Source: Rhizopus arrhizus (taxonomy: Eukaryota; Mucoromycota; Mucoromycetes; Mucorales; Rhizopodaceae). From it: a stretch of DNA of 64,000 nt. Made by a program: the position numbers and the translations under genes. The stretch's first letter is position 1. Each line of letters opens with the position of its first letter. This document shows positions 1 through 37,259 of this stretch, in pieces. The stretch spans positions 1,488,001-1,552,000 of the forward strand of contig JAKZZE010000010.1 of the NCBI GenBank assembly GCA_024220505.1. The letters run 5' to 3'. Under the pieces are notes generated by a model, which was not told the DNA's origin, searched no databases, and saw nothing but the letters and a program-made list of their open reading frames with translations.

Positions 1-2954
1 CGTTAAGTCATGCTGAGGCCCAGCTCGATCAAATGGCCGATTTCTCAGCAAGTACCCTTGCCCTAAGATCTGGTTTACGTTGGCGAGAACACGGTGAACG
101 CTCCAACTCATACTTCTATAAGACGATCAAGACCCGTACTCAAAAACAGACTATCCACGAACTTCTTTCTTCAGAGGGATACTTGGTTCGCTCTCCAAAC
201 CAGCTCAACAATTGCGCCAAACAATTTTACGAGCAGCTATACTTTCCTGACCCAATTGATAATGAGGCGTTGGAGGGACTGCTGACACAGATTCCTCCCT
301 CAACTTGCTTTGATGCAGCTACAAATAATGCTTTAACATCTGAATGGACCGAAGAGGAGGTACTTACGTGCGCTTCTAAAGCACCATCCCACAGCAGTCC
401 GGGCGTGGATGGCATTCCTTACGAGTTGCTACAACTCCTGCTGCAGCACCCTTTCTGTATTCGCTTATTCACGAAAGTACTCAACAGTGCTCTCCAGCAG
501 AGTAAATTTCCCGCTACTTGGCAACAATCAATTGTAATCCTTTTACCAAAAAAAGGAGATCGAAGTCAATTAAAAAAGTGGAGGCCTATCTCTTTGATAT
601 GTGCGGATGCAAAAATCTACACTAGATTGCTAGCAACAAGAGTCAATGACGTCCTGCCTCACCTGATAGACATGCACCAGACGGGATTCATGCCTAAACG
701 TTTCATAGCAGACAATGGGGCTACCACTAGACTCGTAATGGATGTCGCTCAAAGAATGAAGCTCCCTGGTATTGCTTTACTTTTGGATCAAGAGAAAGCT
801 TATGACCGAGTGCATCCTCAGTATTTAAAAGCATGTCTAGATAAATATGGCTTCCCACAACCATTGGTTGTCAGCATCATCTCCCTGTTTTTTGGAACTT
901 CTCTTTGTATAAACGTTAATGGTTTCCTCACGGCACCGATTTCGCAAGATAGAGGCTTACGCCAAGGAGACCCCCTTTCTCCCCTACTTTTCAATTTGGC
1001 AATAGAACCATTGCTACGCTCTATATGGTCCTCTCCACTTATCTCGGGATTTACATTCCTTAGACCGCAATGGCCTAATTTTACCTCTCTGCCAAGATCA
1101 TCGCCACCATTGAAAGCACTAGCCTATGCAGACGATGTCCTAGTCTTCCTTACACAACCTACAGAGTTGCAGACATTACTACATTTAGTATCTCTATACG
1201 GCAAAGCTTCCAACGCTCGTTTGAATCGTAGCAAGACTATGGCTGTCTCCCTTTCAGGGGAAGACCACCATGATTGGAGACAAACGCTCAGTGCTAACGG
1301 GATCACCCAGTGGCATGACAAACGGGCATCTTCAGCTACCATTTATCTTGGATATCCTCTCACAAGCAGTCCTCAACAACTGTCTAGCTATTTAGATAGC
1401 CTTATTGTAAAAATCGAGAAACATGCTACCATCCTATCACAGCGACGGTTGTCCATACTAGGGCGCAGCATGATTGCCAACTCACTCCTCCTTAGTCGTG
1501 TTTGGCATAGTATAAGGGTTTTGTCACCTCCTCAAAATTTCTTTCAGCGGATACGTACGGTGATTATATCATTTTTGAAACAAAAGAACTTTCCGTTTGT
1601 GAAATTCCAAGACTGTCAGCGATCACGTAACGAGGGCGGTATCGCTATACTGGACCCATCGACACAACACTCTGCCTTGCAGTTACGATGGCTTACTCCA
1701 CTGCTCCTCTCATCCGACCAAGCAACCAATCCAGATTTCTTTGCTACCAGCCTCATGAAATACACTCTCTGTGCCTTCTCATTTGCGCCATCACCACTAT
1801 TACCTCTACTATTTCCTGAGCGACGCACCACCGATTTACACAGACTTGGTTGTTTTAACTCATTATTCAACACTTTTGATAAAATAGATTTTGAGATCGA
1901 TTGGACGGCACTGAACGCTGGTATAGCTTCAGAGATCCCCTTGAGCCGTATATGCCCATTACTGCTTACCAACGATCCTTACCACACTTGCAACTATTGG
2001 AAATCAAATTTGGTTAAAGACTTATATAGATTTAGCGCTGTAGATGGAAAGCTTACCCCAATCACCTCCTTTCTATCGAGAAAACAACGTAATCGATCTG
2101 AAACATATTTTGACCTCCTCTCACTAGGTCACGTTAAGGAAGAAAACTTTTTTGCAGCTCTCAGAAGCACGTCTGATCTCTCACTTGGTCTTATTATCTC
2201 CTCTTTGGGTTTCCCACCCCCTGAACCGGAATTTCATTCTCTACTTCGCTCACCTTTACCAGATGGCACACCAATTGAAAACATATCAACAAAATGGTTC
2301 CGTCATATTGACAAGCTGCCACTAGATAGTTTACCTTCTCATTACCCTCGAACCAACAAGTCATCCTGGACACAGTTTTGGCACGCCTCAATTCCGCATC
2401 CAGCACGAACCATTCTTTGGCGACTCTATCATTCCAAGCTGCCCACAAGATCCCGATTGCACAAAATCATGCCAAACACTATTACTGATGACAGATGTAT
2501 GCTGTGTGGCGCAATCGAATCTGATGAACATTTCTTCTGGTCTTGTCCACTTAAACAGCCTATGTGGGATACACTTTCAACTCGTTTCTTAGAACAGACC
2601 CCACGTCTGACTTTTGAAGAAATCTCTCGACCCCACGCAATCTCAGCCATAGTGCGTCCGCAATGGCAACTTGATTCTTTCCAAGTAATCGCCTGTGGTG
2701 TACTGTGCCTCTGGCGAACTCATTGGAAACATATTTTTGATGGATCGCCCTTTTGGCCAAATGAAGCAGCTGCTAGAGCTACTATGCTCCTCCGCAGAAT
2801 GCATCAAGAAAATCTTTATCAGAAAGAATCCCAAGACAATAATCAGATATCACATTAATTTTATACTTTTATTCTATATATTTAAATGTTTTCCTACAGT
2901 GTACGTCTAAAGGCGGCACAAGAATAAACTCCTCATACATAAAAAAAAAAAAAA
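1..2954 (+). mobile_element. LINE (non-LTR retrotransposon), 3' part
   Basis: The left edge of the window lies inside a non-LTR retrotransposon on the plus strand. The coding part (next entry) is followed by about 80 bp of 3' UTR and a run of 14 A at 2941-2954. The end of the UTR reads GCGGCA..GAATAAA.TCCTCATAC before the A-run, and the same tail occurs in the neighbouring SINE. The 5' end, the endonuclease domain and the left target-site duplication lie outside the window. Confidence 0.9.
3..2858 (+). CDS. LINE ORF2: reverse transcriptase with C-terminal zinc-binding domain (5' end outside window)
   Basis: The frame is open from the window edge through the first ATG (base 33) to a TAA, so the ATG is probably internal and the protein starts upstream with the usual AP endonuclease. 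The visible part carries a complete RT domain: a finger region near residues 90-200, the palm motif YADD near residue 366, and the thumb. A C-terminal zf-RVT module (CMLCGAIESDEHFFWSC, about residue 830) is typical of L1-like plant and fungal LINEs. The product would copy element RNA at a nicked target. No stop or frameshift is seen in 952 codons, so the element may be recent. No RNase H domain was recognised. Confidence 0.92.
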   Translation, partial: LSHAEAQLDQMADFSASTLALRSGLRWREHGERSNSYFYKTIKTRTQKQTIHELLSSEGYLVRSPNQLNNCAKQFYEQLYFPDPIDNEALEGLLTQIPPSTCFDAATNNALTSEWTEEEVLTCASKAPSHSSPGVDGIPYELLQLLLQHPFCIRLFTKVLNSALQQSKFPATWQQSIVILLPKKGDRSQLKKWRPISLICADAKIYTRLLATRVNDVLPHLIDMHQTGFMPKRFIADNGATTRLVMDVAQRMKLPGIALLLDQEKAYDRVHPQYLKACLDKYGFPQPLVVSIISLFFGTSLCINVNGFLTAPISQDRGLRQGDPLSPLLFNLAIEPLLRSIWSSPLISGFTFLRPQWPNFTSLPRSSPPLKALAYADDVLVFLTQPTELQTLLHLVSLYGKASNARLNRSKTMAVSLSGEDHHDWRQTLSANGITQWHDKRASSATIYLGYPLTSSPQQLSSYLDSLIVKIEKHATILSQRRLSILGRSMIANSLLLSRVWHSIRVLSPPQNFFQRIRTVIISFLKQKNFPFVKFQDCQRSRNEGGIAILDPSTQHSALQLRWLTPLLLSSDQATNPDFFATSLMKYTLCAFSFAPSPLLPLLFPERRTTDLHRLGCFNSLFNTFDKIDFEIDWTALNAGIASEIPLSRICPLLLTNDPYHTCNYWKSNLVKDLYRFSAVDGKLTPITSFLSRKQRNRSETYFDLLSLGHVKEENFFAALRSTSDLSLGLIISSLGFPPPEPEFHSLLRSPLPDGTPIENISTKWFRHIDKLPLDSLPSHYPRTNKSSWTQFWHASIPHPARTILWRLYHSKLPTRSRLHKIMPNTITDDRCMLCGAIESDEHFFWSCPLKQPMWDTLSTRFLEQTPRLTFEEISRPHAISAIVRPQWQLDSFQVIACGVLCLWRTHWKHIFDGSPFWPNEAAARATMLLRRMHQENLYQKESQDNNQISH

Positions 2955-5630: not shown

Positions 5631-8600
5631 TTAGTTGAATTGTCTCAGCCATTCAATTAGCTTTTGACCATGAGGTGCCTTGCATGGAATGGTTGTATAG
5701 TGTTGTAGTTGATCTAATTCATGGAGGATAGAACATATAACGGGCCATCGCCAGGTCCAGGACAAAGCAATACTAGAGGAAACAAATGCGCGTGTCGGAA
5801 GCATATTCAAAAGGAAAGATATAGGGTCGGCTATTGTTTCAGGCATACAGAGTCGGCGATGCGTATTGAGGCAACTGATGGCGTGTCGTCTTGACAGGTT
5901 ATTGTTGGGATGACGGGGGCAGGGTTTGGGGGCCCCACCCGGTAACCAACCAAGGCGCCAGCGTAGACATCGACTTCTTTCTTCATGAGTCATTGGTAGC
6001 CACAAGATGGGGTCGAGGGTGATTGTTGGTCGACAGCTGGATAGCAGTTTGGAGTTCTTACCTTGGATCTGTTTTTCAAGGTTAGAGTGAAGAAATTTCT
6101 TTTTTATCGCTCTAAAGCCTCGAGCATCTAAGTCGGCTATCGTCGGCGGCATCAATCTCCACAGAGCAGTTTTTGATAGTCGATACCATTGATGACCTCT
6201 TGTGTACTGTATGTGTGGCATTAAGAGATATAGTAGTGTGTCTTCAGGTAAAGATAATGAACGAAAGAGGAATTGGGCTTGCAGGATAGCTATCCTTTCT
6301 TTCATTGTGGGTAACTTAGCCAAATGCAGCATCACCTTGGTGGATGTGTTTCCAGATGCGCCATAGATCTTACGTATGCATTTGTTTTGTGCCTCTTCTA
6401 GAGTTTTCAGCTGAGTGTGATTGAAGCAGTTAATAGCTATGCCGTATTCCATTTGTGGTCGAACTATTTGAGCATAAAATCGAGAGCATAGGAGCTTGGA
6501 GAATCCTGAAGGATTTACCCCAATAGAAGATAGAGCATTCATCGTAGCCATGGCTTTGAGAATATTGCTTTGTACAAGCTTCTCCGGATCAAGTTGACCA
6601 CCTGGTTTGAAAGGTATTCCTAGGTAGTTAAAAGTTGTCGCTTGCGGTATAACTTGGTCATAGATCGCATATTCTATTGTTTGTGGTTGGTTATCCAAGA
6701 TGACACATTTTGAAGGATTCCACCGGTATCCCATTTGCATACTGTGTTCTTCGCATTTTTGTAGTAGGTCAACCATTGTTGAGCTATTGGCTATTAAAAC
6801 CACATCATCCGCATAAAGTAAGCAGTTCAAGAGTGGTGCTAACTGTAATGGCGATGTATCCTCCTTTATGGTTTGAGGGCGTAGGTATACCGGAAGTTGA
6901 TTTATATATACCGAGTAAAGATAGGGCGAGAGGATGGATCCTTGGAGTACTCCAGTCTTTGGATGGAAACGCCTAGAAGTTGCGTTTGAGACAAGTACTT
7001 CTATCTGAACTTCGTCGAACAAGTTGCGTAGAAGACCTAGGAGTGGAGCTGATATACAATGTTGTAATACCTTCCATACATGGTTTCTGTCAACAGTATC
7101 ATAGGCGGATTTTATATCCAGAAAGGCCAGAACGGGTTTGCTATGGTAATGTGAACGCAGTATATGGCATATCTCTGCAAGACAAAGTGCTTGGTCTAAC
7201 GCACCACGGGATTCTCTAAAGCCCCCTTGTGCAATGTCAAGCGAGGGTCCGTCAGTTTGCAAATTATATTGGATGCAACGTTCCAAGATCTTTCTAAAGA
7301 TAGAAGTTAGGCTGATAGGTCGGTAATTACTCGGTTCGTCAGTGGAGCCTTTTTTATATATCGGGACAACTTGAGCAACACGCCAAGATTGTGGAGTATA
7401 AGACCACATCCAACACAAACGGAAGAGCGAAAGAAGAAGCGGTGTCAGTAGATGTTGTATTGGTCGGAGCATTTCATTCCGTAGGTGATCCACACCAGGT
7501 GCTTTCTTTGTTGGTAAGTTTCTAATGGCTTCTTGGATATCCTCTGCAGTAATTGGGCATTCTATCTCAAAGGGTAAAATTGGATTATAAATATTGTTTA
7601 TTTGAACTTCCCTTAGCAATTGTCCCGAAAAAACATTCTCTAGATGTGAAGCCATTATGTCTGCAGCATGCTGAGGGCCTTGTGGTGTAGAGAAAGCTGG
7701 CCGTAGGGTACGATGTTTACGGATACGACTAAGTCTAGAAATAGCTTTTGTGTACTCCCCAATTGCCATCTGATGACAGAACCTACGCCAGTTTTCTCGA
7801 CGTCGTTGATGGATAAGGCGCCTTAGCATTGCACGTGCTTGTTGGTGTTGTAACCAGAAATGGAGTTTATTCAGACCGTATGCTTTACGCCATTTCCTAT
7901 AGTAATATTCTCTAGCCTCGTATGCTTGTCTCATTTCCGCTGTCCAAAAGTCCTTCATTGGGTCGGTTTGTTGGCATATGCGTCCACAAATGCTATCCAG
8001 TGACATATATATTGCTTGGCAAATGTCATCATTTAGCTTTTCAATAAAACCTCTTGCTGACTGTTGATCTTGAGGCTGTAGGTTATTGTTCTCGATAGAC
8101 ATTGATATGTTGTTGGTTGCATTTTGGAAACTTTGGATATATTGATTCCTTGTTTTGGCTTCTTGCAGCTTTGTGAGCCTCCAAGTGATACGTGGTTGTT
8201 GGTTACGGACTTCTGGTAATATGCTGGGATGAAATGAAAAAGATATCATCTTGTGGGCAGAATCCAAAGAAAGATCTTCCCATATTGTTAAGGAAGGGTT
8301 ACATAGCTCAGTATCGCTCATGAAGAAGTCTATGATGCTGCTACCTTGGTGTGCTATAAAGGTGGGTTTTCCATATGCAAGGCGTTGGTTCCATAATATG
8401 AAATTATGTTCTTGCAGCCATCTATATATCATGTTGCCTCTGGGGTTTGTAGAGCTATCTCCAGTATAAGATCCCATTCTTGCATTAAAATCGCCACAGA
8501 GGATGGTATACTTGACATCGGGTGCTGTACGTGGTAAGGAATCCAGGACTTGACTAACAACTTGATTGTTAAGTGAGGGTGGGAGATAAACACAATGAAC

Positions 8601-8915
8601 GAGAGTGTCTGCGATAATGAAGGAGAGTTTGTATTGTGAAACCGACGTGTTGTCGTTCGGTAGGTGATGAACATGATATGGGCAGGTTGGGTTAATAAGG
8701 AGACTGATACCTTGATGTCCCTTAGTGGCTAGGGGCTGTGTTTTGATGCCATATGTGTGAAATTGTTTCCAGTGAGTAGGGTATTTGTTGGGTGGCAAAA
8801 GCCAAGTTTCAGTAATAAGTAGAACCGAGGAAGATTGGGCAAGATGGAGTATTGGTGATATGACCTGTTTTGCTAGGCCTGTGGCATTGAAGAGAGTAAT
8901 AGTGATTGGACTCAT
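5631..8915 (-). CDS. LINE ORF2: AP endonuclease and reverse transcriptase
   Basis: A 1,094-aa ORF with no internal stops. The N-terminal APE-type endonuclease shows the LITETWLLPP, CGDFNARMG and SIIDFFMSD motifs (about residues 33-200); the usual SDH near its end reads SAH. The RT domain (about 470-760) has GVLQGSILSPYLYS and the catalytic YADDVVLI. The C-terminal part has conserved W/R-rich segments seen again in the decayed copy next door. The protein nicks target DNA and primes reverse transcription there. The absence of damage in either ORF makes this copy a candidate for recent or current mobility. Confidence 0.93.
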   Translation of the reverse strand: MSPITITLFNATGLAKQVISPILHLAQSSSVLLITETWLLPPNKYPTHWKQFHTYGIKTQPLATKGHQGISLLINPTCPYHVHHLPNDNTSVSQYKLSFIIADTLVHCVYLPPSLNNQVVSQVLDSLPRTAPDVKYTILCGDFNARMGSYTGDSSTNPRGNMIYRWLQEHNFILWNQRLAYGKPTFIAHQGSSIIDFFMSDTELCNPSLTIWEDLSLDSAHKMISFSFHPSILPEVRNQQPRITWRLTKLQEAKTRNQYIQSFQNATNNISMSIENNNLQPQDQQSARGFIEKLNDDICQAIYMSLDSICGRICQQTDPMKDFWTAEMRQAYEAREYYYRKWRKAYGLNKLHFWLQHQQARAMLRRLIHQRRRENWRRFCHQMAIGEYTKAISRLSRIRKHRTLRPAFSTPQGPQHAADIMASHLENVFSGQLLREVQINNIYNPILPFEIECPITAEDIQEAIRNLPTKKAPGVDHLRNEMLRPIQHLLTPLLLSLFRLCWMWSYTPQSWRVAQVVPIYKKGSTDEPSNYRPISLTSIFRKILERCIQYNLQTDGPSLDIAQGGFRESRGALDQALCLAEICHILRSHYHSKPVLAFLDIKSAYDTVDRNHVWKVLQHCISAPLLGLLRNLFDEVQIEVLVSNATSRRFHPKTGVLQGSILSPYLYSVYINQLPVYLRPQTIKEDTSPLQLAPLLNCLLYADDVVLIANSSTMVDLLQKCEEHSMQMGYRWNPSKCVILDNQPQTIEYAIYDQVIPQATTFNYLGIPFKPGGQLDPEKLVQSNILKAMATMNALSSIGVNPSGFSKLLCSRFYAQIVRPQMEYGIAINCFNHTQLKTLEEAQNKCIRKIYGASGNTSTKVMLHLAKLPTMKERIAILQAQFLFRSLSLPEDTLLYLLMPHIQYTRGHQWYRLSKTALWRLMPPTIADLDARGFRAIKKKFLHSNLEKQIQGKNSKLLSSCRPTITLDPILWLPMTHEERSRCLRWRLGWLPGGAPKPCPRHPNNNLSRRHAISCLNTHRRLCMPETIADPISFLLNMLPTRAFVSSSIALSWTWRWPVICSILHELDQLQHYTTIPCKAPHGQKLIEWLRQFN

Positions 8916-10156
8916 ATGGAGGCTGTATCATCCATAGGAGTCGTAGTTTCGTTCATGTCCTTAGGTTCTTCAAAGATGTTCATATGGTCATCATCGGAAA
9001 AGAATATGTCTATATCTTGCTGTCTGTTTGTTGTTCGTGCTGGTAGAGTTTCTTGTAAGAGCTGTTTGCTGATCCAGCCCTTCGAATAAAAGTATCGGGC
9101 AACGGCAAACTTGACTGGGGCTCGAATGTATTGCAGAGCTCTTTCAATGCGGTTACAGTGATGCATAAAAGCAAGATTTTCTCGCTCTTCAGGGGTGTGG
9201 TCAGCATATTTTGGATCGCGAAGCACTTGGGGATCACAAGGATTAAAGTCCTCTTTGATGGTTACTTTGAAGCGTTGTAGTTGTTGTCGTAGTTCGTTTT
9301 CGTAATCATTGTGGATCAAAAGGGCGATAATGTTACGATCAGGGTAATGTATGTCAATGATGCGGTTATTGTTGATATCCAATTTGCGCAAGCGGGAGCG
9401 TATCTGTCCAATAGGTACTCTAGCCTTCGTAGGCAAGTAGATATATTTAAATCCTTGGTTGGTAGAGGGTGGCTGTAACAGACGTGCGGCTGCTTCTTGT
9501 CGTTGTAGGCATCGTTGTTGTTGTTGGGCGGTCAGTTGGTCTTTAATTTGCTGAAGTTTTGCAGGTTGGTGCCATGGAGTTGAGTGTAAAAGTGTTGTTG
9601 CGGTGTTCTGAAGAGGAGGAAAATCGGACGGGTTCAAGCGGTTTGTAGGATTCGAGGTGTTGTTCTGTTGATTTAGTTGTTCTTGGAGATGTGCTGTCTG
9701 GGCTCGAAGTCGTTCGATTTCAGTTCTTGCGGAAGCTAATTCTTTTGTTAATAGTTGGATCATGTTAAGGAGAGACTGTGAATCATTTTGGTTGCTGTTG
9801 GTTTGTGTCACTTGGGATGACATAGCACCTTGGAAAGATCCAGAAAATTCAGGATTCATTGATGTTTGTGTGTTTGCAGGAGTAGACTGCGTAGAATTCA
9901 CAATGTTTAACATAGTTTTGGCTCGGAAGCTACTGCCGCAACCATTGCAACGGAAAATAGGTTGTGGAGGCTCAGATTTAGTAGAGCCGTTTCGGCGGAA
10001 AATACCCTTTTTCTCGCAATTAGGACATCTCAGAGATTTGCGATGGGACTCGAAATGAGAAAGTAAGTAATTAATTTCATCCTGTGATAGGATATTATTA
10101 ATATTAGACAGTTTAGTGTTGCTATTATTATCAGATATAGCAGAGTCTGGAGGCAT
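8912..10156 (-). CDS. LINE ORF1: zinc-ribbon, coiled-coil RNA-binding protein
   Basis: A 414-aa protein preceding the reverse transcriptase ORF. Near residues 43-75 it has two CxxC pairs (CPNCEKKG and CNGCGSSF) that form a zinc ribbon. A glutamine/leucine-rich coiled coil follows at about residues 130-165, where multimerisation of LINE ORF1 proteins normally occurs, and then a basic C-terminal half. It has no classical L1 RRM that I can recognise. ORF1 proteins coat the element RNA and accompany it to the target. Its TGA overlaps the ORF2 ATG as ATGA (8912-8915), which suggests stop-restart translation of ORF2. Confidence 0.82.
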   Translation of the reverse strand: MPPDSAISDNNSNTKLSNINNILSQDEINYLLSHFESHRKSLRCPNCEKKGIFRRNGSTKSEPPQPIFRCNGCGSSFRAKTMLNIVNSTQSTPANTQTSMNPEFSGSFQGAMSSQVTQTNSNQNDSQSLLNMIQLLTKELASARTEIERLRAQTAHLQEQLNQQNNTSNPTNRLNPSDFPPLQNTATTLLHSTPWHQPAKLQQIKDQLTAQQQQRCLQRQEAAARLLQPPSTNQGFKYIYLPTKARVPIGQIRSRLRKLDINNNRIIDIHYPDRNIIALLIHNDYENELRQQLQRFKVTIKEDFNPCDPQVLRDPKYADHTPEERENLAFMHHCNRIERALQYIRAPVKFAVARYFYSKGWISKQLLQETLPARTTNRQQDIDIFFSDDDHMNIFEEPKDMNETTTPMDDTASI

Positions 10157-24929: not shown

Positions 24930-25298
24930 TTATTCTTCGTCAGTATCCATGGTATCCTCTTCTTCATCGTCTATTTCTTCGCTTGTCAGTGTTGGAGTTT
25001 CTTCAATTTGTTTGTCTTTAAGCCAGTGCTGATATTTCTTTGTATGTCCTACATCAGTTTGATTGCGACATTCTCTTCCATAAATACATAATGGTCTTTG
25101 ATGTATTGATTCTAGCGAAATATAAAAAATTAATAACAAATTACTTAAAAGATTAATTTGTATTTACCAGGAATATCAACAGAACAATTGTTGCTTGTCA
25201 TGCGGTTTTCGAGGATCATGGACAAAACATAATCTGAGCAAGAATTACATACTCTGCTATCCAAATTCACGTCAAGAGGCGTATTCCATTTTTTCTCT

Positions 25299-25343
<45 letters not shown>

Positions 25344-28300
25344 TTATTGATTGAATATGAAAGCAGTGTTTCTTCCACTTACTGTAGAGGCCATTAGTTA
25401 TGTAACTGTCAATATCTGAATCAAATATATCTTTTGGAGTCTGTTGTTGATGTATAAGATAGGCTTTTAATAACTCCTTTTCATATTCATTGAAATGATC
25501 GTATTGGTATTTGCTAAATTCACAGTCCTTCAGCTTGACGTTATCATGAACCATTGAGCAAAAACACAAGGCACACATTGAAGAATCTTTGATGACGAGT
25601 AGATAACGAATTCTAACCCTGTTTTCGTCATGCACCATATATTCGTTATGATTTAGTACAATGTCATTTGTTTGTTCAGTAAAAGTGTTTTTGACGCAAG
25701 GACCAAATGTAATACGGGTCTATTTATAAATTGTGTTTTTAACATTTGCTGCACAGACTTTTTAAGGAAAAAAAAACTTACACCGTTCTTATCAAATACA
25801 GTATTGAATGGATCTGGTACTTGCTGACCTAATGCTTGCACAGAATCATATGGTGCTGAATCTGTTTTTTGTGAGCTACTAAAGGTTTGTATTCGACCAA
25901 GGGCTACTTCACAGAGCAGCATGATCTTGTAAGGAGAGCTGGCAGACATGTAGCTGTCATGACAATAGCTCAATGATTTCATAAAGTTGTCAGCAAAATA
26001 TACGCCTGTTCCTAACATAGCGCCCTATATAATTTACACAAGTCAGTCATTTCTGGATTTTAAACCAATATCTCTTACATTGGTCTGGGCTGTATTGGGT
26101 GCACCGCGAAGGCCTTGCTTTAAGATACCCATAATGTTACCAATTCTTGACCCATGCCATAATAGCATACGGTTTGGGCAACTTTCATAGGGACGGAATC
26201 GAGCTTGCTCTTCAGCTCTTTGAACATCAAAAAGGTGAACCAGATCATGATTTTTTGACGTAGAGTTCATATAAGACATAACCATATCGTATTCTGCTTC
26301 GCTACTGGTTATCTCTTTCATTGAACAGTTCAAAGCACGATAAGCGTAATCTAGAGGACTAATTTCATTCATACGATGCTTGGCAGCCAGGATTACATTA
26401 GCCGCAAAACCAACATAGCTGAAATCCATTAGCTTTTCAAATTCATCTTCATAATTAAACGCTGTATTATAATAGCGAGAGCTAGGCTGAAACACAGCAG
26501 TTTTGGATTCATTAGTTTTTGGCATAAGTTGAGAGTATTCAATAAGCTTTTGAGCCAGTTGGAAAGTGTATACTATCAAAAAGAAAAGTAAGAAATGCAG
26601 AAATAAATGCATTTTTTTTAGCTTACATTTGGCTAGTTGTATTTGCGATTTATCATTATAATTTTTCCTTGCAACTTTCAATTTATCGTTAAGCTCTTTG
26701 GCTTCTATCAAGAGCTGGCGGGCTTCTTCAATTCGTTTTTGCGGAACTTGACCCAGTGGCATATCAATCATTGTATCCTTGTAAACCTTTGATAGATACT
26801 GATAGTTGCAAATAAGTTTCATGACATTCAAAACGCCTGATGGTAAGTAAGATGGTGTAGAGGAAGCCATAAAGTCAAAATCATTTAAAAGCATATCTTT
26901 TGGATGCTCAGACTCTTTGAGTAGGTCGTATTTCCCAGGCTTCGCTTCAAATGATGAAAGGTCCTCCCAAGCATTAGAAGTTTTGGATCTAAAGATCGAC
27001 TTAAACTCAGCAACAGCTTCTTCTTTTGTTAAATAGGGTGTACGTTGATGTTGACCTTCTTCTCCAAATGGCCCCCAGCGTGTCCAGAGAACGTATAGAT
27101 CAAGTACCTTGTTATAGATGATACTCATTTTATAAGATCTACAATTTTTATTAATACTACCCTTCCACATGTAATTTATACACTTACGAGCTTTCAATTT
27201 CATTCCATGAATTAATATTTACTTTTAACAACATGATATCATAGGGCTCATCTGCCTCATCACACTCTACGTAGCCGACTTTTTCAAGCTTCGAGTATGG
27301 GTCAACTTTAGCTTTCATATCAACTTTTTCTTTAATTCCATCCTTTTTCTTTTTGGCATTATGCTCTTCTTGAAGAAGCTCCCTTTCTAATTGTGCAGCT
27401 TCATCTATTTGATGCATAGAAATAAAATCGACTTCCATCATATATTCCGTGCCATGGCTAGTATGGTCTTCTTCTAAAATGGTATTTTTGATTGTAGGTT
27501 CCAATCGAGTTAAGCATTCAAAAAGCTGCTTATTGGACCTTTGATATGCGTATGTGATAGGTGTATTTCCTTGACCATCTATCATGTTTAAGGCCATACG
27601 AAAGGTGTCATCGCCCATTATATCCCTAAGATATTCAAGCATGAACGTGTTTTCAGAAGAATAACCATTCAAGCAGCCAAACAGATAGGACAACATATTT
27701 CGTTCTTCATGATCATGCCACAACCAATGGATAGGAACTTGGGTTTTGTTACAAATGAGCATAACCATATCTAATTTGTTCTGCAATATAGCATGTAAAA
27801 TAGAGGGTATTTTTGTTTGTGGCAAGTTTAAGAAACTTCTGAAACCAGGCAGTGGACAAGTATGACAGCTTTCAATATTTGGATCAGCATTCAGGAGGAG
27901 CAACCGCTATATATAAAATAAATAAAGTTTTTTTCTTTCTTTCTTTTTTTTCTCCTACTTCAGCTATGACAAGATTGTTTTTAGAGATAGCTAGCTCTAA
28001 AGGGGTCATACCAGAAGCTGCATCTACAAGAGAAACTTGGGGTTCAAACTCCTGTATCATCTTGTTAAAAACAGAATCCTTAAGTTTCTTGTTATGAATC
28101 CCTCTGTCTTCTCCGCCCTTGAGTTCTTCCTCGCCGAGTTGCGCAAATAAAAATTGATAAAATATGCTTCGATTATTGGGACCATCTGACATGTTTAAAT
28201 CTACTTTATGCTCAAGAAGTGTCTATCATAGAAGCTGTATTAATAGGAGAAAACGCTCTGGACTGATTATGTTTTTATACTTTACTTCTTGATTTTGAGT

Positions 28301-31300
28301 TTTGCCATTATCCACATTAAACATAAATAAGGATCTTCCATGTTCTGGGTAGCAGTTGGGACCATACACATTGGGGTTGGCCCCTGATCTGAGCAATAGC
28401 TGATAATGAAATGAGATGTCTCTTCTTTTAAATAAGTTGATTGTGGGTTTACCTTGAATATACTTTCATCATCTTTCAAAGATGCCACAAATACAGGATG
28501 AACTAGAGATATGAGCTTCATACCGCATTCATCTTTTCTTTCAATCATTGAGGGTGTATCCAGATTTGCTTTTGCGTCTATCAATAGTCTTAGAATATCA
28601 ATATTTTCATTCTGACAAGCTGTCATGACAGCATTGGGACGGTTGTAATGACTGTCTTCGTCAGTATCTACATTATGTTCCAACAGAAGACGAACAATAT
28701 TGATGTGGTTTGCCTTGACTGCTTTCAAAAGCATAGAATCATCCTTAGGCTTATTTTGTCCACAAATGGATGCGCCTGAATTAATCAAGATCTATACATT
28801 GAAAACCAGAGAAAAAGTTTAGATTTCCTATAGTGACATTTTGATGTACAATTACTTTAACGCTTTCAGTATTCCCAGACTCAACAGCATAGTAAAGCTC
28901 AGATTTGCCATTTTCATCAAAGAGATTGATTTTTCCAGATTCTAACAGGTATTTTAATAGATCAGCTTGGCCGTGCTTTGCTGCATAATGCAAAGGAGTC
29001 CGCATAAATTTATCTGGGTAAATACCAAGATTCAATGGAGCGATTCTTGTAATAATTTCATGCAAATACTCGTGCCAGATCTCACTATATAGATCACAAA
29101 GATAGTTTAGATGAGTTATAAAGGTTTTTGTGTATTGCTTCCTTTAATACCTGTCAAATGGTGTAAAATCAGAGATAACATGCCATAAGTTTTGATTTGT
29201 ATCTTGAAGAACATCAGAAAGGGCCTCATTCTGTACAGATTGTAATAAAAGTTCAACCATATGAAATTTTCCTAAATATTAAGCAAGTCAATACAAATAC
29301 AGTAAATTTAATCATAAACAAATCTTTTACCATTGACAAGAGTGTCTCTTACAGACTCTGTATGAAAAAATATATAAGTTTAAAAATAAAATTTTTCTTA
29401 TTTTTGTTTACCGAGTAAGTTTATTCCTCTTTCCATGATCAAGTATGCCAGATTTATAACTGATTTGGATAAACTGTAGCCAAATGTTGTCATATCTTTG
29501 CCGTTCTTCAATGTAATCTTCTCTTTGAAAGATGTGCCAGAGTTACATAGCATAACAGCATAATCGACATGACCATTTTGAAGAGCTAACTGAAGCGCAC
29601 CATTCTATAAGATAAAGAGTTCATATTAGACATCACTTCTCTAAAAATAAAAGCTGGGCTTACATTGTCTGCATCCATGGCGTTGATGTTGACCTTTCTG
29701 TCAATAAGCATGGTGGTACAACTAAAAGCGCCTACACAAGCAGCATAATGAAGAGGTGTTCTTCCAAATTCGTCTTGTGCCTCGCAGTCGATATCTTCAT
29801 GATTGAGCAGGTATTTCACAATATCAATGGGATCAAATCTTTCGGCGATGTCTAATTCACCCTCAAAAATACAACCTTCATATTCCTTAATACGCTCCTT
29901 TTCTTCATTCGTCATATCAATTTTTTCTTGAGGGTTATTTTTCTTCTTTTCTTTGATTGCCTTTTGCTCCAGCTGTTTCTTTTTACCGGCTATCAACCAA
30001 GAATCGGTACAGGAATTGGAATCCAAAGCATAGGTGTTAGAAAACTTATCCAAAGCATGTTCTATTTCTTTTTTGCCTTTGAGTTCTTTCGAAATCTGAC
30101 GAAACTTTTTGGCAACAATGATAGTGTGACGATTCAGAGGTACAAAGTCCATTTTTGTGAAGACATAATGAAGTGGTGTACGACCTGTAATGAGAAATTA
30201 AATGATAAATTTTCAGGATGCTCTATTTTCTTGCAGAAAACTTACCAAAATTATCCTTTGGATTCAAATGAGCACCAGCATGTATTAACAATTTTTCAAC
30301 TCTGAATGAACGATTATTTTGCCTTTTTGTTGCTTCTATTGCAAAATGGAGTGGTGTTTTTTGAGCATTGTTGACAGAGTTACAATCGGCGCCGTAATTT
30401 AATAAGAGTTTAACTACTTGGTGTTTTTCGGTTAGAACAGCGATATGTAGAGCAGTATTTCCTTCTAATGTTTTATATGAGACATCTGCGCCTGCATCTA
30501 AAAGAGTTTGCACAACTTCAATTTTTTTGCTTTTGACAGCTTCAGCTAGAGAGGATACACCATAATTACAGAAATTGGGATCAGCACCCAAAGAAAGTAA
30601 ATCTTGAACAATTATAAGGTTTCCATTACGAGCAGCAGAAGACAATGGAGAGTTTCCTTGAAGATCACATGTATTCAGAAGAAGGGGGCATGAGCAAACT
30701 GTAGCTTTTAAATATTTCACATAGCTATCCACGATTCCTTCTTGATTCAATGAGCAAGATAAAATCAATGCTGTTTCACACTCTAATTTTAAAGTTATAG
30801 CGACAATAACAAAAATTACTAATAAACTCCTTACGCTTATTTTTCAAATGGTGTTGTAATTCCACCTTTGATTGTTCAAGTATTGTCTGAGCCAAAAGAG
30901 CATTAGACGTACTTATCGCTTTCATAAATAACGTGTTCCCATCTCCATACTGAATATTAGGGTCAGCACCAGTATCCAGAAGTAGCTTTACGATTTCAAT
31001 GTCAAAAGCTTCTTTTTTCTTGATATGATTTGAGATATTATCAATAGCGACCAAAAGTGGAGTTTGTCCAAGCTCATTTAATGCATTTATATGAGCGTTT
31101 TCAGATGGAATAGCTTTGCACATGCTCTTGAGGTTTTCAATGTCCATGTTAAAAGTGGCCTTCATAATTGGAGAGTCATGATCTGTTTTGGCTGTATAGG
31201 GGCAACCATGATATTGTATGAGGATCTCAATTGTTTTACAGAGCATAGCAGGAAAATCAGGTTTAGTGATAGTGAATTTCTGTTTTAGTGCTTCTATAGT

Positions 31301-34300
31301 CTCCAATCGTTGATTGGGAAGCTCTTCAGATTTGTCGCGTTTTTTATGATAGGCAATAGTCATGGGTGTGTTTCCAAGTATACCTTCAATATTTACTCTA
31401 AGATTTGCGTCACAACCATGCTGTAATAAGAACTGAATAAGATCAAAGCATTGTGTTTGAGCAGCTAAGGTTAAACAAAAAATTAATAACTAAGAATAAA
31501 ATATTGACAATGCATATTACCTAAGTGTATAGCGCCATAACCTGTCTGTTCAGGATATTCATATATTTTGGCCTTTGGGTTGTTCTTTTTATAATCTTTG
31601 GGGAGGGCTATAACAGCATCCATATTGCATGAGAATTTGGATAATACAAGCTTCATATATTTAATCTATTATAAAGTTGTTTAACGAAAAGTATCTTTCC
31701 AACATACTAAAATAAATAAATGTTTCAAATTTTACCCAAATGTCGAAGGAAAGAGTCAAATTCACCGGAAGGTTGCGAGCCGCTTCTTCTGCAACATTAT
31801 GTTTTTGCATATAATTTGCGCTGTACGGAGGAGTATAGCCTAGCATATCACGAATCATTTCTTTTTCTCGAACCATAGATGCTTTCTGCATGCGAATAGC
31901 TTGAGAAACTCCATAGACAATCGGAGGATAGCCTTCGTTATTTACTGTGTTAGCCTATTTACTGCATGCATTAGACAATATTTTATATAGGTTATTTATA
32001 TGTTCATGTACTATCAGTTTCAGGTCATCATTTGCAGGCTGATTTTTCTCAATAGCTTCCCACATAGCATCTGCAGCTGCCAGCAACCTATTTTTTTGAA
32101 TACAATCCATTTCTCTATGGGGCTGCAATTGCTCAATGTAGGCAATGAACCTACTGAAATAGTGGATAAAGTTGTTTCCATTTGCGTCGACATCTTTCCA
32201 ATATTTGGCACCAGACTCAATTAAAAATGTGACCATTGAATGATTATTGAATCGCATTGCAGAAGCCAATGGTGTTTCACCTTCTTGATTCTGTATATCA
32301 ATATCCGCACCATAGGCTATAAGCATTCCAGCAAGCTCTTTATGGTACATGATTCCATCCTGGTCATCATTTTCGAAAACTCTTGTTTTCTTATTAGCGT
32401 TACTACCATACCCATATGTATTCCGTCTCTTCTTTGGGTAAAATGATTCATAGAAACTAACGAGGCATTTTATATATGTCGTGTCTTTAGCGAGCGAGTG
32501 TAGACAACTATCGCCTGTGATTATGATAAACAATTAGTTACGAAGTATGCTTATTGCAAATAATCTTACCATTAATATCAGTACTATTGACATCTGCATT
32601 CATCTGCAGGAGAAGTTTAGCTTTCTTTAAATTGAGTTCTTGGTCATGTTTGCTTGAAACAGATTCGGAGACAGTGTGCTGGAGCATACTTCGTCCTTCT
32701 TCATTTTTAAAATTCACATTGATATGATGTTCAGGTAAGTCCAATAGATACTTGACAATGGCCACATGACCCTTAACATTAGCAATGGAACAAGGTGTAG
32801 TTCTCCATACATTACTCAAACCAGGGTTAGCTTGACCATAACCTATGAGTAAATGAAGAATACTAAGATGGCCAAAGGCGGCAGCATAGTGTGAAGGCCG
32901 ATTTGCGGAGCTATCAGATGCATCTGCATCTACTCCCTGTGACAAAAGATACTTGACTACATCAAAGCGACCATCAATACAGGCCAAATGCAACGCATTC
33001 TTGGAATACTTGTCACCCTTTTCAGGATCAGCTTTGCCTTCTTCCATCAGAACACGAACACATTCAAGGTGACCATTCTTAGCAGCATACATCAAAGCCG
33101 TGCGTTTATCCAAGCTTTCTATGGCATCAACTGGGCAACCATACCGGATCAAGATGCGACAAGTTTCAGCGTGTCCAAAGGATGCAGCTAAATGGAGAGC
33201 AGTCCTTTTGTTTCGGATAAGAGACTGAAATATAACGGAAGGATCTTCAGTGTCTTTTTTCTCGGACAAATGTTTGATAATAAGCTCAACGTTGTGTGTT
33301 CTGCCAAACCGAGCTGCCTGCATAAGAGGCGTCATTTTGTATTTATCTATTTGAGTTACGCCGACGCCTTGAGAAATCAGGTATTCTAAACAATCACTTG
33401 TCTCACTGGCAGCTGCAAAGAATATTACAGTTCGTCCAAAACTATCAGACGTTAATCTTTCGGCAGCATCCAAAGTTTCATAGAACTCTTGAAGATAAGC
33501 TCGAGAAGGATTGATAGCAGCACAGTGAAAAGGCGTGATTCCATAGGCATCAAATGCATTTTTCAAAATTTGAGGTTTACGATAGGATCCCAAAGGCTGG
33601 CCATCGACAAACTGGTATGATCATAGTTTAGAATACCAAATTAGGTTATAAGCTTAGAACTTACTTTCAAAGTTTCAACGTGAAGTGTATTAAAAGTGGT
33701 TCTTCCGAATGAATCAGTCTGCATTAGTTCGCAAGCCAATTTTCTACTTCCAGCTTCTACTGTATAATAGATACACCTGGGGTAACTTGAATCATATATA
33801 TTTGCCTTAAAGCTATTAATTGTACTCATTTCTTGAAAAACTGGCTTGGTAATGTGAGACATAAAGCCTTTTATAATTTCGCGAGATAATTGAAAATCAA
33901 TATCTAGCTGAAGTTTGTATTCTTGGCACATAACGTTTGAACCATGATAAAATGCGGAATCACCTTCTCGGTTTCCTCTTGATTCTTGAACTTGCCTATT
34001 TATCAACATTGGTAGGTATATACCTTAAAAAAGGGATAAAATATTTGTAAAATGTTACCTGAAAGCCATCTGTCCATAAGCACCTCTTCCATAATTTCTT
34101 CCTGTATAAGCACCATATTGAATATATCTAACAGGGATTTCTGGTCGCTTAACAGATTTCGAATGAAATTCTTCCATCTTTTCTTTAATAGTCTTTGTGA
34201 ATTCCTCCTTCCCAAGAACGATTGAATAGCTTAGAATTCCCAATTCATATTCATCATGATTGGGTGGTGCAGGCATATGCTCTGTATTATCGAATGCTGC

Positions 34301-35108
34301 CACAAATCCTTTTAAATCATCTTTCTCAATACATTCCTTGTAATATCCAGCAGCGCACATTAAGCAACATTCTTTTTTATCAACAGATTCGATTTGCTTC
34401 ATAATCTCCGTAATGCTAATCCCTTCTCTTAGAGCCCTTCTTACTTTTCTTTCTTCCATCTGGGCTTCCAAAGTGACAGCTGCCTTGGTTTTTCTATTAC
34501 CGATAGATTTTCCTTTTTTGACCCCCGTACCACCATCACTGGATGATGTTTTACGTTTAGTGCCACTTCTGTGATCCTCTTCATCGTTGTACGTCAAGAT
34601 TTCAACATAGTCTGCGCTCTTAAGGGTCATTAATGCACGGGCCTTGGATGCACGTAATGAGCGACTCTGGAAAGAGTAGCCTGATTGTTGATGTACTTTT
34701 TCTTGATAGGCAGAGAGTACATCTGATGCTTCAATAGATGCCTCATTCTCCCATAAAGCCTCTTGATCTCCTTCACGTTGTACCAAATAAACAAATTGTC
34801 CCTACAATCAGTTCAATGAAAGTCAATTCTATCCAGTATACAACGCACTTACTGATTGAACTTTAAAATCAAGAATACTGATAACTTTTCTCTTTGTGTT
34901 ACCAGCAACTGCAGCAGCAGATCTTTTAATTGTCTTGCGAATGGTGTCTCTTTTTGCAGTATATTTGTCCATGACACGGTTCTATTTTGAAATTATATTA
35001 AAAATCGGCATGTTATACTTTAATTTTGTTTCTACTAACGTGATCTCTTTGGGGTTTTGCAATTTTTGTCAATTGCTTTCTTTGGCGTTTGGATGATGTT
35101 ATCGTCAT
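24930..35108 (-). CDS. Giant chromo-like/ankyrin/WGR/PARP/PBZ protein, poly(ADP-ribose) polymerase
   Basis: I joined 25 exons (transcript order): 35108-35040, 34981-34853, 34801-34059, 33995-33665, 33611-32570, 32514-32012, 31954-31736, 31665-31521, 31464-30835, 30782-30246, 30184-29664, 29604-29412, 29357-29331, 29271-29151, 29084-28856, 28791-28453, 28399-28286, 28222-27959, 27906-27188, 27138-26627, 26572-26079, 26024-25782, 25719-25383, 25296-25168 and 25111-24930. All introns are GT-AG with matching phase, and the product is 2,923 aa. Domains: basic N-terminus (NLS-like); chromo-like module about 56-106 (ILDFKV..GQFVYLV...LW); more than twenty ankyrin repeats about 430-2150; WGR about 2270-2370 (LWTRWGPFGEEGQ); PARP regulatory domain about 2375-2490 (MPLGQVPQKRIEEA); catalytic domain about 2490-2770 with H2602 (LLWHGSR), Y2636 (GTGVYFAD) and E2734 (HNEYMVHD), the polymer-forming triad; a linker with CALC and CNSC pairs; a PBZ-like finger with C2872, C2878, H2886, H2892; and an acidic tail. 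It should build poly(ADP-ribose) from NAD+, probably on chromatin or DNA ends. Confidence 0.9.
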
Positions 35109-35372: not shown

Positions 35373-37259
35373 TTATAATTTCATGATTTCATAATAACGA
35401 GAGATAGGTACAGCTGTAAAATCACCATCAATTTCTTCTGCATTAAAATCGACCGGTATCTTTTCAAACACAATAAAACAAGATGTATCATCACACTCTT
35501 CAATTACATATTTGCCGTGTTTTGAAAATAGTGCTTCCAACTTTTCAGTATTAAGAGGTGTCTGTTTATATGTGACGTAAAATGCACTTCTTTGGTTTGT
35601 TATGGTTTCATTATTGATAAAGTCCAAATAGTCAAAAGCTGATCTGACTAAGGCTGCCTTGTTAATACTATTTTTCAATATAGGATTCACTGCATTGTTG
35701 TCAACGAATAAATCAACTTGTGTAGATCCATAGTTGTATATCTCTTCGTCTTCACCATCCTCATGCCAATTGCCCTTATCCTCTTCTTCTTCATCGGTCA
35801 CCTCCCATCCATCGCTATGCAGCTTTCTGGCTTCGATTTGCTCTGGTTCCTTCTCCTCTTCAACAATAAATTCTGGCGGATTTCTTATTTTATCCAAGTA
35901 CGATGTAAGTCTAAGGAATGCAGCACCTGTCATAAAAGCATCATAGCCAGCTTCATGTGCCTTTTCAGTCAAGTATCGAGGAAATTGAGGGTGCATATCA
36001 ATACGAGGGTTAGCAAAAGCTTCTTTACTTGTTTCAAATCTAAGCTGTTCTAGTGCTGTAGCAGTTCCGAATATTTTCTAATAAAAATATGGCAAAGTCA
36101 GCTTTGCACATCTTAGACTAATAAGGAATAGGCTCTTACAAATAGTTCGGGTTCAGCTGCACACATATATTTTGTATCAATCAGACTACAGACGTCTATT
36201 AGTAACTTTCTTTAAATTTCCCTCTCTTATTACTTCGGAAAAAGTCTATGTGTCAATACTTTAAACTCTGCCAGTGTATCAGGTAAAGGCTGAACGAATT
36301 GTCCTATAACATGGCAAATATCTAACAACATATTATGGCCAACAATCATCTTTTTGGATTCTGAAATCATATCAATGACCTTCCTAAATCCTACAGCCTG
36401 TCTACAATCATTTTCAAACTTTTCAAACTTTTCCTTTTTGCGTTCTTTTTGCTGCTTTTCGGTTAATTTGGTGATGCGAATAAATCCTTGCATACCAATG
36501 GCTGTAAGCTCCCTATAGCTATATTTCATTATTGTACATTAGTCTTTTTCTCTTTGCAAAAAAAAAACAAAAAAGCTTGGTACTTTAAGATTATTTACTT
36601 GTTTCTGACCTCTTGGTATATTAATCTTCTCTGATATGCATTTTTTGCCACAATATTGACTCCATCATCCTTTCTGTTATCCTTTAGCCATTCTTCAATT
36701 TTTTGCTTTGCAGCCTTCATAAATTCAAATTCTTTTTCGTCCACAGGGATAGTAGGCATATCGTCTGCCATTCTTTTCTCTCCTTGTTCTCGATATACTT
36801 TTTCTTCTTGCTTTGTCAGATAGGGAATGCCTTGATAGACCCATTTGTTGAAGTCAAATGATTGCTTAACCAAAAAGTCGAATGCTTGTGCCTGTGTCAT
36901 GAAGATACGATTGGCTTGAACTGTTCCTGTAGTGCTCGTAGGAAAAATATAAAAATTGAAAGGCTTGGCAATATACCGGCCAGAAGACGCGTCCCACTTG
37001 AAGGTGCACAAACCAAATTGAATGACAATGAATCGTTCTGTGGCCTCTTTATATTCAACATATCGATCTTGAAGAGAATATAGTCTTTTATTATTTAACG
37101 GACGGTGAAGACCTAGATATGTTCAGTTATATTGTTGAGAAGTTAAACAGAGATAAGTTTACCAGACAGCTCTGTGTCAATCGCAATTACATCACATTCC
37201 TTAATGGCTTCTTCAACTATTGAAAGCTTTTCCACAAATTGTTGTCTCGAGATCTCCAT
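35373..37259 (-). CDS. PARN: Poly(A)-specific ribonuclease PARN (CAF1/DEDD deadenylase)
   Basis: Five exons: 37259-37163, 37112-36599, 36512-36234, 36185-36140 and 36077-35373, encoding 546 aa. The DEDD nuclease starts with IAIDTELSG (first Asp and Glu). VGHNMLLDICHV and FPNLIDTKYM follow, the latter formed only if exon 4 begins at 36185, and HEAGYDAFMTG supplies the last catalytic residues. An R3H-like insertion (QRRLIYQEV) sits in the usual place and an RRM-like domain near the C-terminus (about 415-490). PARN trims poly(A) tails of mRNA and small non-coding RNAs from the 3' end, in nucleus and cytoplasm. It lies in tandem, 265 bp downstream end to upstream start, with the PARP gene. Confidence 0.93.

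Follow-up and report, generated by a model that had tools for sequence, protein, structure and literature searches.

An ankyrin-WGR PARP of early-diverging fungi with a chromodomain-like N terminus, a putative poly(ADP-ribose)-reading tail, and a WGR domain that lacks its arginine

A 64,000-nt stretch of the Rhizopus arrhizus genome (GenBank assembly GCA_024220505.1, contig JAKZZE010000010.1, positions 1,488,001 to 1,552,000; hereafter, the window) contains the gene of a large multidomain PARP. Our analysis suggests, with a probability that we put at about one-half, that the protein is a Clade 1A PARP that early-diverging fungi have remodeled into an enzyme associated with chromatin, which would both write and read poly(ADP-ribose) (PAR) and whose switch would not be the canonical route through the WGR domain. 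The domains follow one another in the order chromodomain-like stretch, ankyrin repeats, WGR, helical domain (HD), ADP-ribosyltransferase (ART) domain, CHFR-type cysteine-rich domain (CRD), and PBZ finger. This order, which an earlier note made from the letters of this DNA had proposed to look for in other Mucoromycota, was found in predicted orthologs from Mucorales and also from three chytrids, species that we take to belong to these groups. Judged from the sequences, what appears to be new here is the addition of a chromodomain-like part and a CHFR-type CRD-PBZ to an ankyrin-WGR PARP, together with a WGR arginine that has been lost throughout the fungal family. The gene and its predicted domains are located as follows (E values are from Pfam).

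24930..35108, minus strand: PARP gene; 25 exons, 2,923 amino acids; ATG at 35108, stop codon ending at 24930
34685..34891, minus strand: chromodomain-like stretch, degenerate; residues ~54-105, exons 2-3
27463..33611, minus strand: ankyrin region; residues ~425-2200, exons 5-19; Ank_2 2.7e-95 and 2.8e-46 for its halves
26898..27279, minus strand: WGR domain; residues 2262-2372; WGR 1.2e-13; motif W2313-G2314-P2315
26340..26852, minus strand: PARP regulatory (helical) domain (PRD); residues 2388-2540; PARP_reg 7.4e-9
25588..26297, minus strand: PARP catalytic domain (CAT); residues 2555-2752; PARP 1.8e-45
25104..25575, minus strand: probable CHFR-type CRD; residues 2757-2866; Cys 2757, 2760, 2837, and 2840
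25026..25088, minus strand: probable PBZ finger; residues 2872-2892; C2872, C2878, H2886, and H2892

The single frame of 25 exons and 2,923 amino acids read in the earlier note was reproduced on the minus strand from 35108 to 24930, and all 24 introns (24/24) have GT..AG ends. Exon chaining by dynamic programming first gave 24 exons and 2,853 amino acids; three places were then adjusted by hand (the 3′ end of exon 7, a 27-nt exon 13 that was added, and exons 16/17). The junctions were compared with 22 fungal homologs (P0001-P0022), which are themselves predicted models. At junctions 4-24, letters were present on both sides in 17-22 of the 22 homologs, and the alignment was ungapped in 13-22. 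Junctions 1, 2, and 3 were weaker (letters on both sides in 12, 14, and 19; ungapped in 1, 8, and 7). P0019, from another R. arrhizus assembly, is identical to the window PARP at 2369 of 2450 aligned residues (96.7%) and is joined alike across junctions 1-19; it ends ahead of junction 20, probably because the longest contig of its assembly has only 8,632 bases. Since predicted orthologs of Mucorales and chytrids have the same domain order, the window PARP is very probably one gene. An artifact in which exons of two or more genes were joined could draw on the weak N-terminal junctions 1-3 and on the predicted nature of the models, but the 22 fungal models come from other assemblies, keep the order, and are ungapped at most junctions. 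We rejected such a joining on the grounds of the conserved domain order and give it next to no probability.

In the joined protein, ankyrin, WGR, PARP_reg, and PARP all scored above the Pfam cut-offs, with PARP_reg matched at full length, which agrees with the PARP core with WGR and regulatory domain recognized in the earlier note. The HYE triad, H2602 (26156), Y2636 (26000), and E2734 (25644), is intact and lies at exactly the positions proposed there. WGR, PRD, and CAT with this triad are the features of Clade 1 PARPs, and the ankyrins N-terminal to the WGR, as well as the grouping in our tree, are those of Clade 1A or Clade 1-ank. The best PDB sequence match was PARP2 (4.3e-51, across WGR and CAT). 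For P0047, the R. stolonifer ortholog of 914 amino acids, a confident structure model was obtained for HD+ART, and fold comparison returned this part alone.

The putative reader lies in the tail, ~170 residues beyond CAT, in which CRD-PBZ begins ~5 residues past the catalytic domain. The window tail alone matched CHFR in PDB at 5.9e-5. A profile of 16 fungal tails matched CHFR at 3.4e-13, covering both CRD and PBZ, and the PBZ of APLF at 0.0017. Besides the window, this alignment (A1) comprised 15 fungal members out of a further 26, picked for completeness; P0001, P0007, P0009, P0016, P0049, and P0050 (incomplete) and P0019 and P0048 (tail-less) were omitted, and the complete tails P0003, P0015, and P0047 were likewise outside it. 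Ten A1 columns are invariant in 16/16 tails (C4, C7, E35, C84, C87, C119, G122, C125, H133, and H139), and they include both CxxC pairs and all four ligands of the PBZ, the presumed zinc ligands. Pfam at E ≤ 1 recovered zf-CRD in 16/16 tails (best 6.8e-8) and zf-CCHH in 12/16. PBZ fingers have the pattern C-x5-C-x7-H-x5-H with aromatic-Gly after the first Cys; the window finger fits it in both respects, and 0 of 20,000 shuffles reproduced it. A tail hidden Markov model (HMM) trained on the 15 A1 tails other than that of the window detected a full tail in 19 of 27 fungal sequences, a partial tail in 6, and none in 2 (P0019 and P0048); 15 of the 19 match by construction, and the other four are the window, P0003, P0015, and P0047. 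With the same HMM, the full tail was absent in 21 non-fungal ankyrin PARPs. The invariant ligands and the profile match suggest that the tail is probably a CHFR-type CRD plus PBZ and a putative PAR reader, as the earlier note, which had noticed the PBZ, anticipated; the reading of a lone PBZ was superseded once the CHFR match emerged. No CRD-PBZ was found at E ≤ 0.01 among 56 scored candidates in other proteins of ~255-812 amino acids. In one ankyrin-WGR PARP, P0039, a PBZ match lies within the ankyrin region (residues 1390-1415), apparently an independent PBZ gain. The 2014 survey of Perina (PMC4245714) took PBZ to mark PAR metabolism, described combinations of PARP and PBZ outside fungi, and reported that in Fungi a PBZ “could not be found.” Contrary to the survey, the family described here indicates that PBZ does occur in Fungi, fused to a PAR writer.

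The earlier note had supposed that the protein senses DNA ends. In the window PARP, the WGR motif reads WGP, so that the Arg characteristic of DNA-dependent PARPs of the PARP1-3 type is replaced by Pro2315. The Arg is kept in 0/27 fungal members (P in 8, S in 7, A in 5, G in 4, and K, Y, and E in 1 each), while Trp is retained in 25 and Gly in 27. Non-fungal ankyrin PARPs have it in 16 of the 20 that are readable (of 21; otherwise Q in 3 and M in 1). The residue equivalent to N116 of PARP2 is Ser in the window PARP and Asn in 12/27 fungal members. In passages of PMC4081085, R591A in PARP1, R140A in PARP2, and R103A in PARP3 eliminate DNA-dependent activity, the Arg mutants of PARP2 and PARP3 retain DNA-independent activity, and N116A in PARP2 likewise abolishes DNA-dependent activity; a passage of PMC5945626 has PARP1 R591C arriving at damage sites yet not being trapped there. 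Since mutation of this Arg abolishes the DNA-dependent activity of PARP1, 2, and 3, sensing of DNA ends by the fungal protein is doubtful. With the Arg that links DNA binding to the opening of the helical domain replaced, DNA breaks probably no longer activate the enzyme through the known WGR route, or do so weakly. The domain itself has been kept: mean identity to the window PARP is 0.58 for WGR (18 Mucoromycota; 0.42 in the 3 chytrids), 0.48 for CAT (0.37 in the chytrids), and 0.44 for the short PBZ stretch (0.43 in the chytrids). Since WGR is the best conserved of the larger domains, it is under constraint, but probably for a changed job. By keeping a highly conserved WGR without its naming Arg, this fungal group as a whole offers a natural experiment on WGR roles beyond DNA-end sensing.

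At the other end of the protein, a profile of 14 fungal N termini (alignment A2) matched CBX1 in PDB at 1.6e-13. Pfam Chromo was found in 9/14 N termini at E ≤ 1 (best 3.4e-12), and an N-terminal profile built without the window picked out the window PARP among 56 proteins at 4.5e-17; no Pfam family matched the 321–amino acid window N terminus alone. The methyl-lysine cage of chromodomains is made by W of KW and F/Y of KGF/Y. Where CBX1 has KW..F, the window PARP has QR..D, and thus the cage residues are not kept. The cage W is present in 3/3 aligned chytrids, with F too in two of them, and in 0/11 aligned Mucorales. A Cys-rich stretch with CCLMC (residues ~205-235; exon 3, 34059-34801) lies ahead of the ankyrins and is kept in the A3 consensus; it is a possible zinc site, and in P0018 and P0019, it has a weak likeness to the tail profile (E ~0.3).

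These parts could work together as follows. ANK block I (residues 425-935) and the chromo-like fold would tether the enzyme to chromatin partners, ART would make PAR on itself or on bound partners, and CRD-PBZ would bind this PAR in cis or on a neighbor, so that the enzyme would be kept or spread locally. A trigger other than DNA breaks seems more likely, such as a partner, chromatin, or PAR itself.

Several observations weigh against a chromatin-associated writer-reader of this kind. The full-length Pfam scan of the window PARP did not report PBZ, zf-CRD, or Chromo at E ≤ 0.1. In the window, the matches to Chromo (0.0054), zf-CRD (0.0011), and PBZ (18.5 bits on a 49–amino acid piece, with a cut-off of 22.7) are below the Pfam cut-offs. 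PBZ or the entire tail is incomplete in 8/27 fungal models, which we take to be gene-model or contig ends, and in one of these, P0009, the first aligned CxxC also lacks its second Cys. The chromodomain of Mucorales is degenerate and may not be a histone reader. The PARP and PBZ searches of the genome described below had controls that stayed silent. The WGR retains W2313 and Y2362, which correspond to residues that contact or come near DNA, and DNA binding may persist with other residues compensating. Last, PME-5 is connected to the DNA damage response in a passage of PMC4245714, and further ARTs, from Dictyostelium, have ties to DNA damage.

The last of these points suit a DNA-break PARP of the conventional sort: loss of the Arg would be compensated, the WGR would open the helical domain at 5′-phosphorylated ends, and the tail would hold the modified enzyme at breaks. 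The high conservation of the WGR with its W and Y, the full-length PARP_reg, and the link of PME-5 to damage all fit this alternative, but the absence of the Arg in 27/27 fungal members and the abolished DNA-dependent activity of the three human mutants (PMC4081085, in part) speak against it, as does the Ser at the N116 position, even if 12/27 fungal members have Asn there. We consider a break-activated enzyme possible, with odds clearly below even.

The ankyrins raise the question of a tankyrase. The array comprises 13 three-repeat Ank_2 stretches (10 + 3), which is compatible with the “more than twenty” repeats of the earlier note and gives no exact count; our own repeat HMM, which is too strict for exact counting, found 10. 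Block I is the best conserved section of the region, with an identity to the window PARP of 0.51 in Mucoromycota (n = 15) and 0.34 in the three chytrids. It aligns as one stretch of 307-533 columns with 21/21 non-fungal ankyrin PARPs as well as with the chytrids, and therefore looks ancestral to the ankyrin-WGR PARP clade. The array had been taken for the tankyrase substrate-recognition module, a view that we do not favor, given this alignment and the place of tankyrase at row 35 among the best 60 of 320 PDB ankyrin matches (residues 425-908), a rank that is a weak guide since designed and long ankyrins share the list. A tankyrase-like scaffold that is indifferent to DNA and recognizes its substrates through peptide motifs would account for the long array, the lost WGR Arg, and a block I slightly better conserved than CAT in Mucoromycota (0.51, n = 15, versus 0.48, n = 18). 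In chytrids, however, block I is below CAT (0.34 versus 0.37); there is no Pfam match to SAM in the window PARP at E ≤ 0.1, the PRD is present, and both the PDB rank and the long alignment of block I with Clade 1A–type proteins point elsewhere. We therefore regard the scaffold as unlikely.

The whole genome (50.26 Mb, 41 contigs) was searched in six frames with profiles. One PARP catalytic locus and one WGR were found. The only PBZ match at E ≤ 10 was the window PARP itself (17.2 bits, E 0.43, below the cut-off). PARG, bacterial-type PARG, HPF1, and zf-CRD were not found in the genome, and control genomes were equally silent. A macrodomain was matched once, and the three matches to ADP-ribosylglycohydrolase fell at two loci:

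G000:C33:200583-200747 (L003), C18 (L005), and C38 (L006): candidate ADP-ribose erasers (macrodomain match and two ADP-ribosylglycohydrolase loci)

For Mucor circinelloides and Rhizopus delemar, a passage of PMC4245714 likewise notes the lack of an obvious PARG; without an obvious PARG in two Mucorales, the switching-on and erasure of PAR in this system become directly testable. The protein might also be a mono-ADP-ribosyltransferase or a dead scaffold, with a tail that reads ADP-ribose supplied by a different enzyme. The missing PARG would fit, weakly, as the controls were silent, but the intact HYE triad and the lack of a second PARP catalytic domain in the genome search make this quite improbable. 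Going further than the chromatin-associated writer-reader, the PAR system of Mucorales could be held largely in one polypeptide, the sole PARP being also the sole detectable PBZ reader, uncoupled from breaks by the loss of the WGR Arg throughout the family, and spreading or holding a chromatin PAR mark. We advance this extension tentatively and rate it as rather doubtful. If true, the enzyme would spread or hold the PAR mark by reading its own product, as with histone read-write enzymes.

A CAF1-family ribonuclease gene (35376-37122, minus strand), which we take to be PARN-like, adjoins the PARP gene upstream on the same strand. Because P0008 (Apophysomyces ossiformis) also carries CAF1 before PARP, with 121/174 residues identical, the gene order is conserved between the window and Apophysomyces; the P0008 model itself may be a false fusion of the two genes. 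The domain scan of the long frames of the window covered 10/20. Two of them, 3-2855 (plus strand) and 5634-8927 (minus strand), have reverse transcriptase domains, one also an endonuclease, and represent retroelements resembling long interspersed nuclear elements.

Relations to known PARPs were assessed with a quick tree of 52 proteins and 502 columns, made without bootstrap. It omitted P0019 (too short), P0030, P0036, and P0038; P0051, without an ankyrin match, was among the 20 non-fungal rows, and ADPRT3 and PME-5 were outside both the tree and the retrieved set. The 46 ankyrin-group rows (26 fungal and 20 others) separated from 6 PARP1/2-like rows with a support of 100. The 26 fungal rows form one clade with moderate support (SH-like approximate likelihood ratio test, 81), beside other ankyrin-WGR PARPs. 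According to passages of Citarelli 2010 (PMC2964712), Clade 1A is a subclade of Clade 1 that contains ankyrin+WGR+PRD+CAT proteins, with members in Dictyostelium, fungi, and Paramecium; these passages leave unsaid which fungal members carry ankyrins. Clade 1-ank PARPs are described in passages of Perina 2014 (PMC4245714), which also bear out PME-5 as the precedent for ankyrin plus WGR-PARP named in the earlier note. Phycomyces blakesleeanus, entered without a PARP in Table 1 of PMC2964712 in 2010, has a family member with a full tail (P0011).

Among known systems, the Clade 1A/1-ank proteins (Dictyostelium ADPRT3, C. elegans PME-5, and those of Paramecium and Saprolegnia) share ANK, WGR, PRD, and CAT with the window PARP, and the retrieved Paramecium and Saprolegnia members also share block I and group with it against the PARP1/2-like rows. 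The 21 non-fungal ankyrin PARPs differ in giving no full-tail or chromodomain profile match and in mostly keeping the WGR Arg. Tankyrase has ankyrins and a PARP catalytic domain in common with the window PARP but carries SAM and no WGR or PRD, as stated in part of PMC2964712. CHFR has the same C-terminal CRD followed by PBZ but is an FHA and RING-finger ubiquitin ligase, whereas here a PARP carries CRD-PBZ as its tail. Human PARP2 shares the WGR-HD-ART core; relative to it, the window PARP has the R140 and N116 equivalents replaced, and the ankyrins, chromo-like part, and tail are extra. A further parallel, for which we claim no homology, is the HUSH complex of MPP8 with TASOR. MPP8 also has ankyrins, and its chromodomain is among the PDB matches of the fungal N-terminal profile; its partner TASOR is described as a pseudo-PARP. 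HUSH differs in having two chains and an inactive PARP fold. The open-access matches listed, which were compared by title and start of abstract (subscription papers lie outside them), included no PARP that combines a chromodomain and ankyrins with WGR and CRD-PBZ. The statement of the earlier note that no described PARP has the full set therefore holds for the added chromodomain and CRD-PBZ, but not for the ankyrin+WGR+PRD+CAT core, known since 2010. Because this core is already known, a wholly undescribed kind of PARP is too strong a claim; what the fungi have is a genuine variant of the core.

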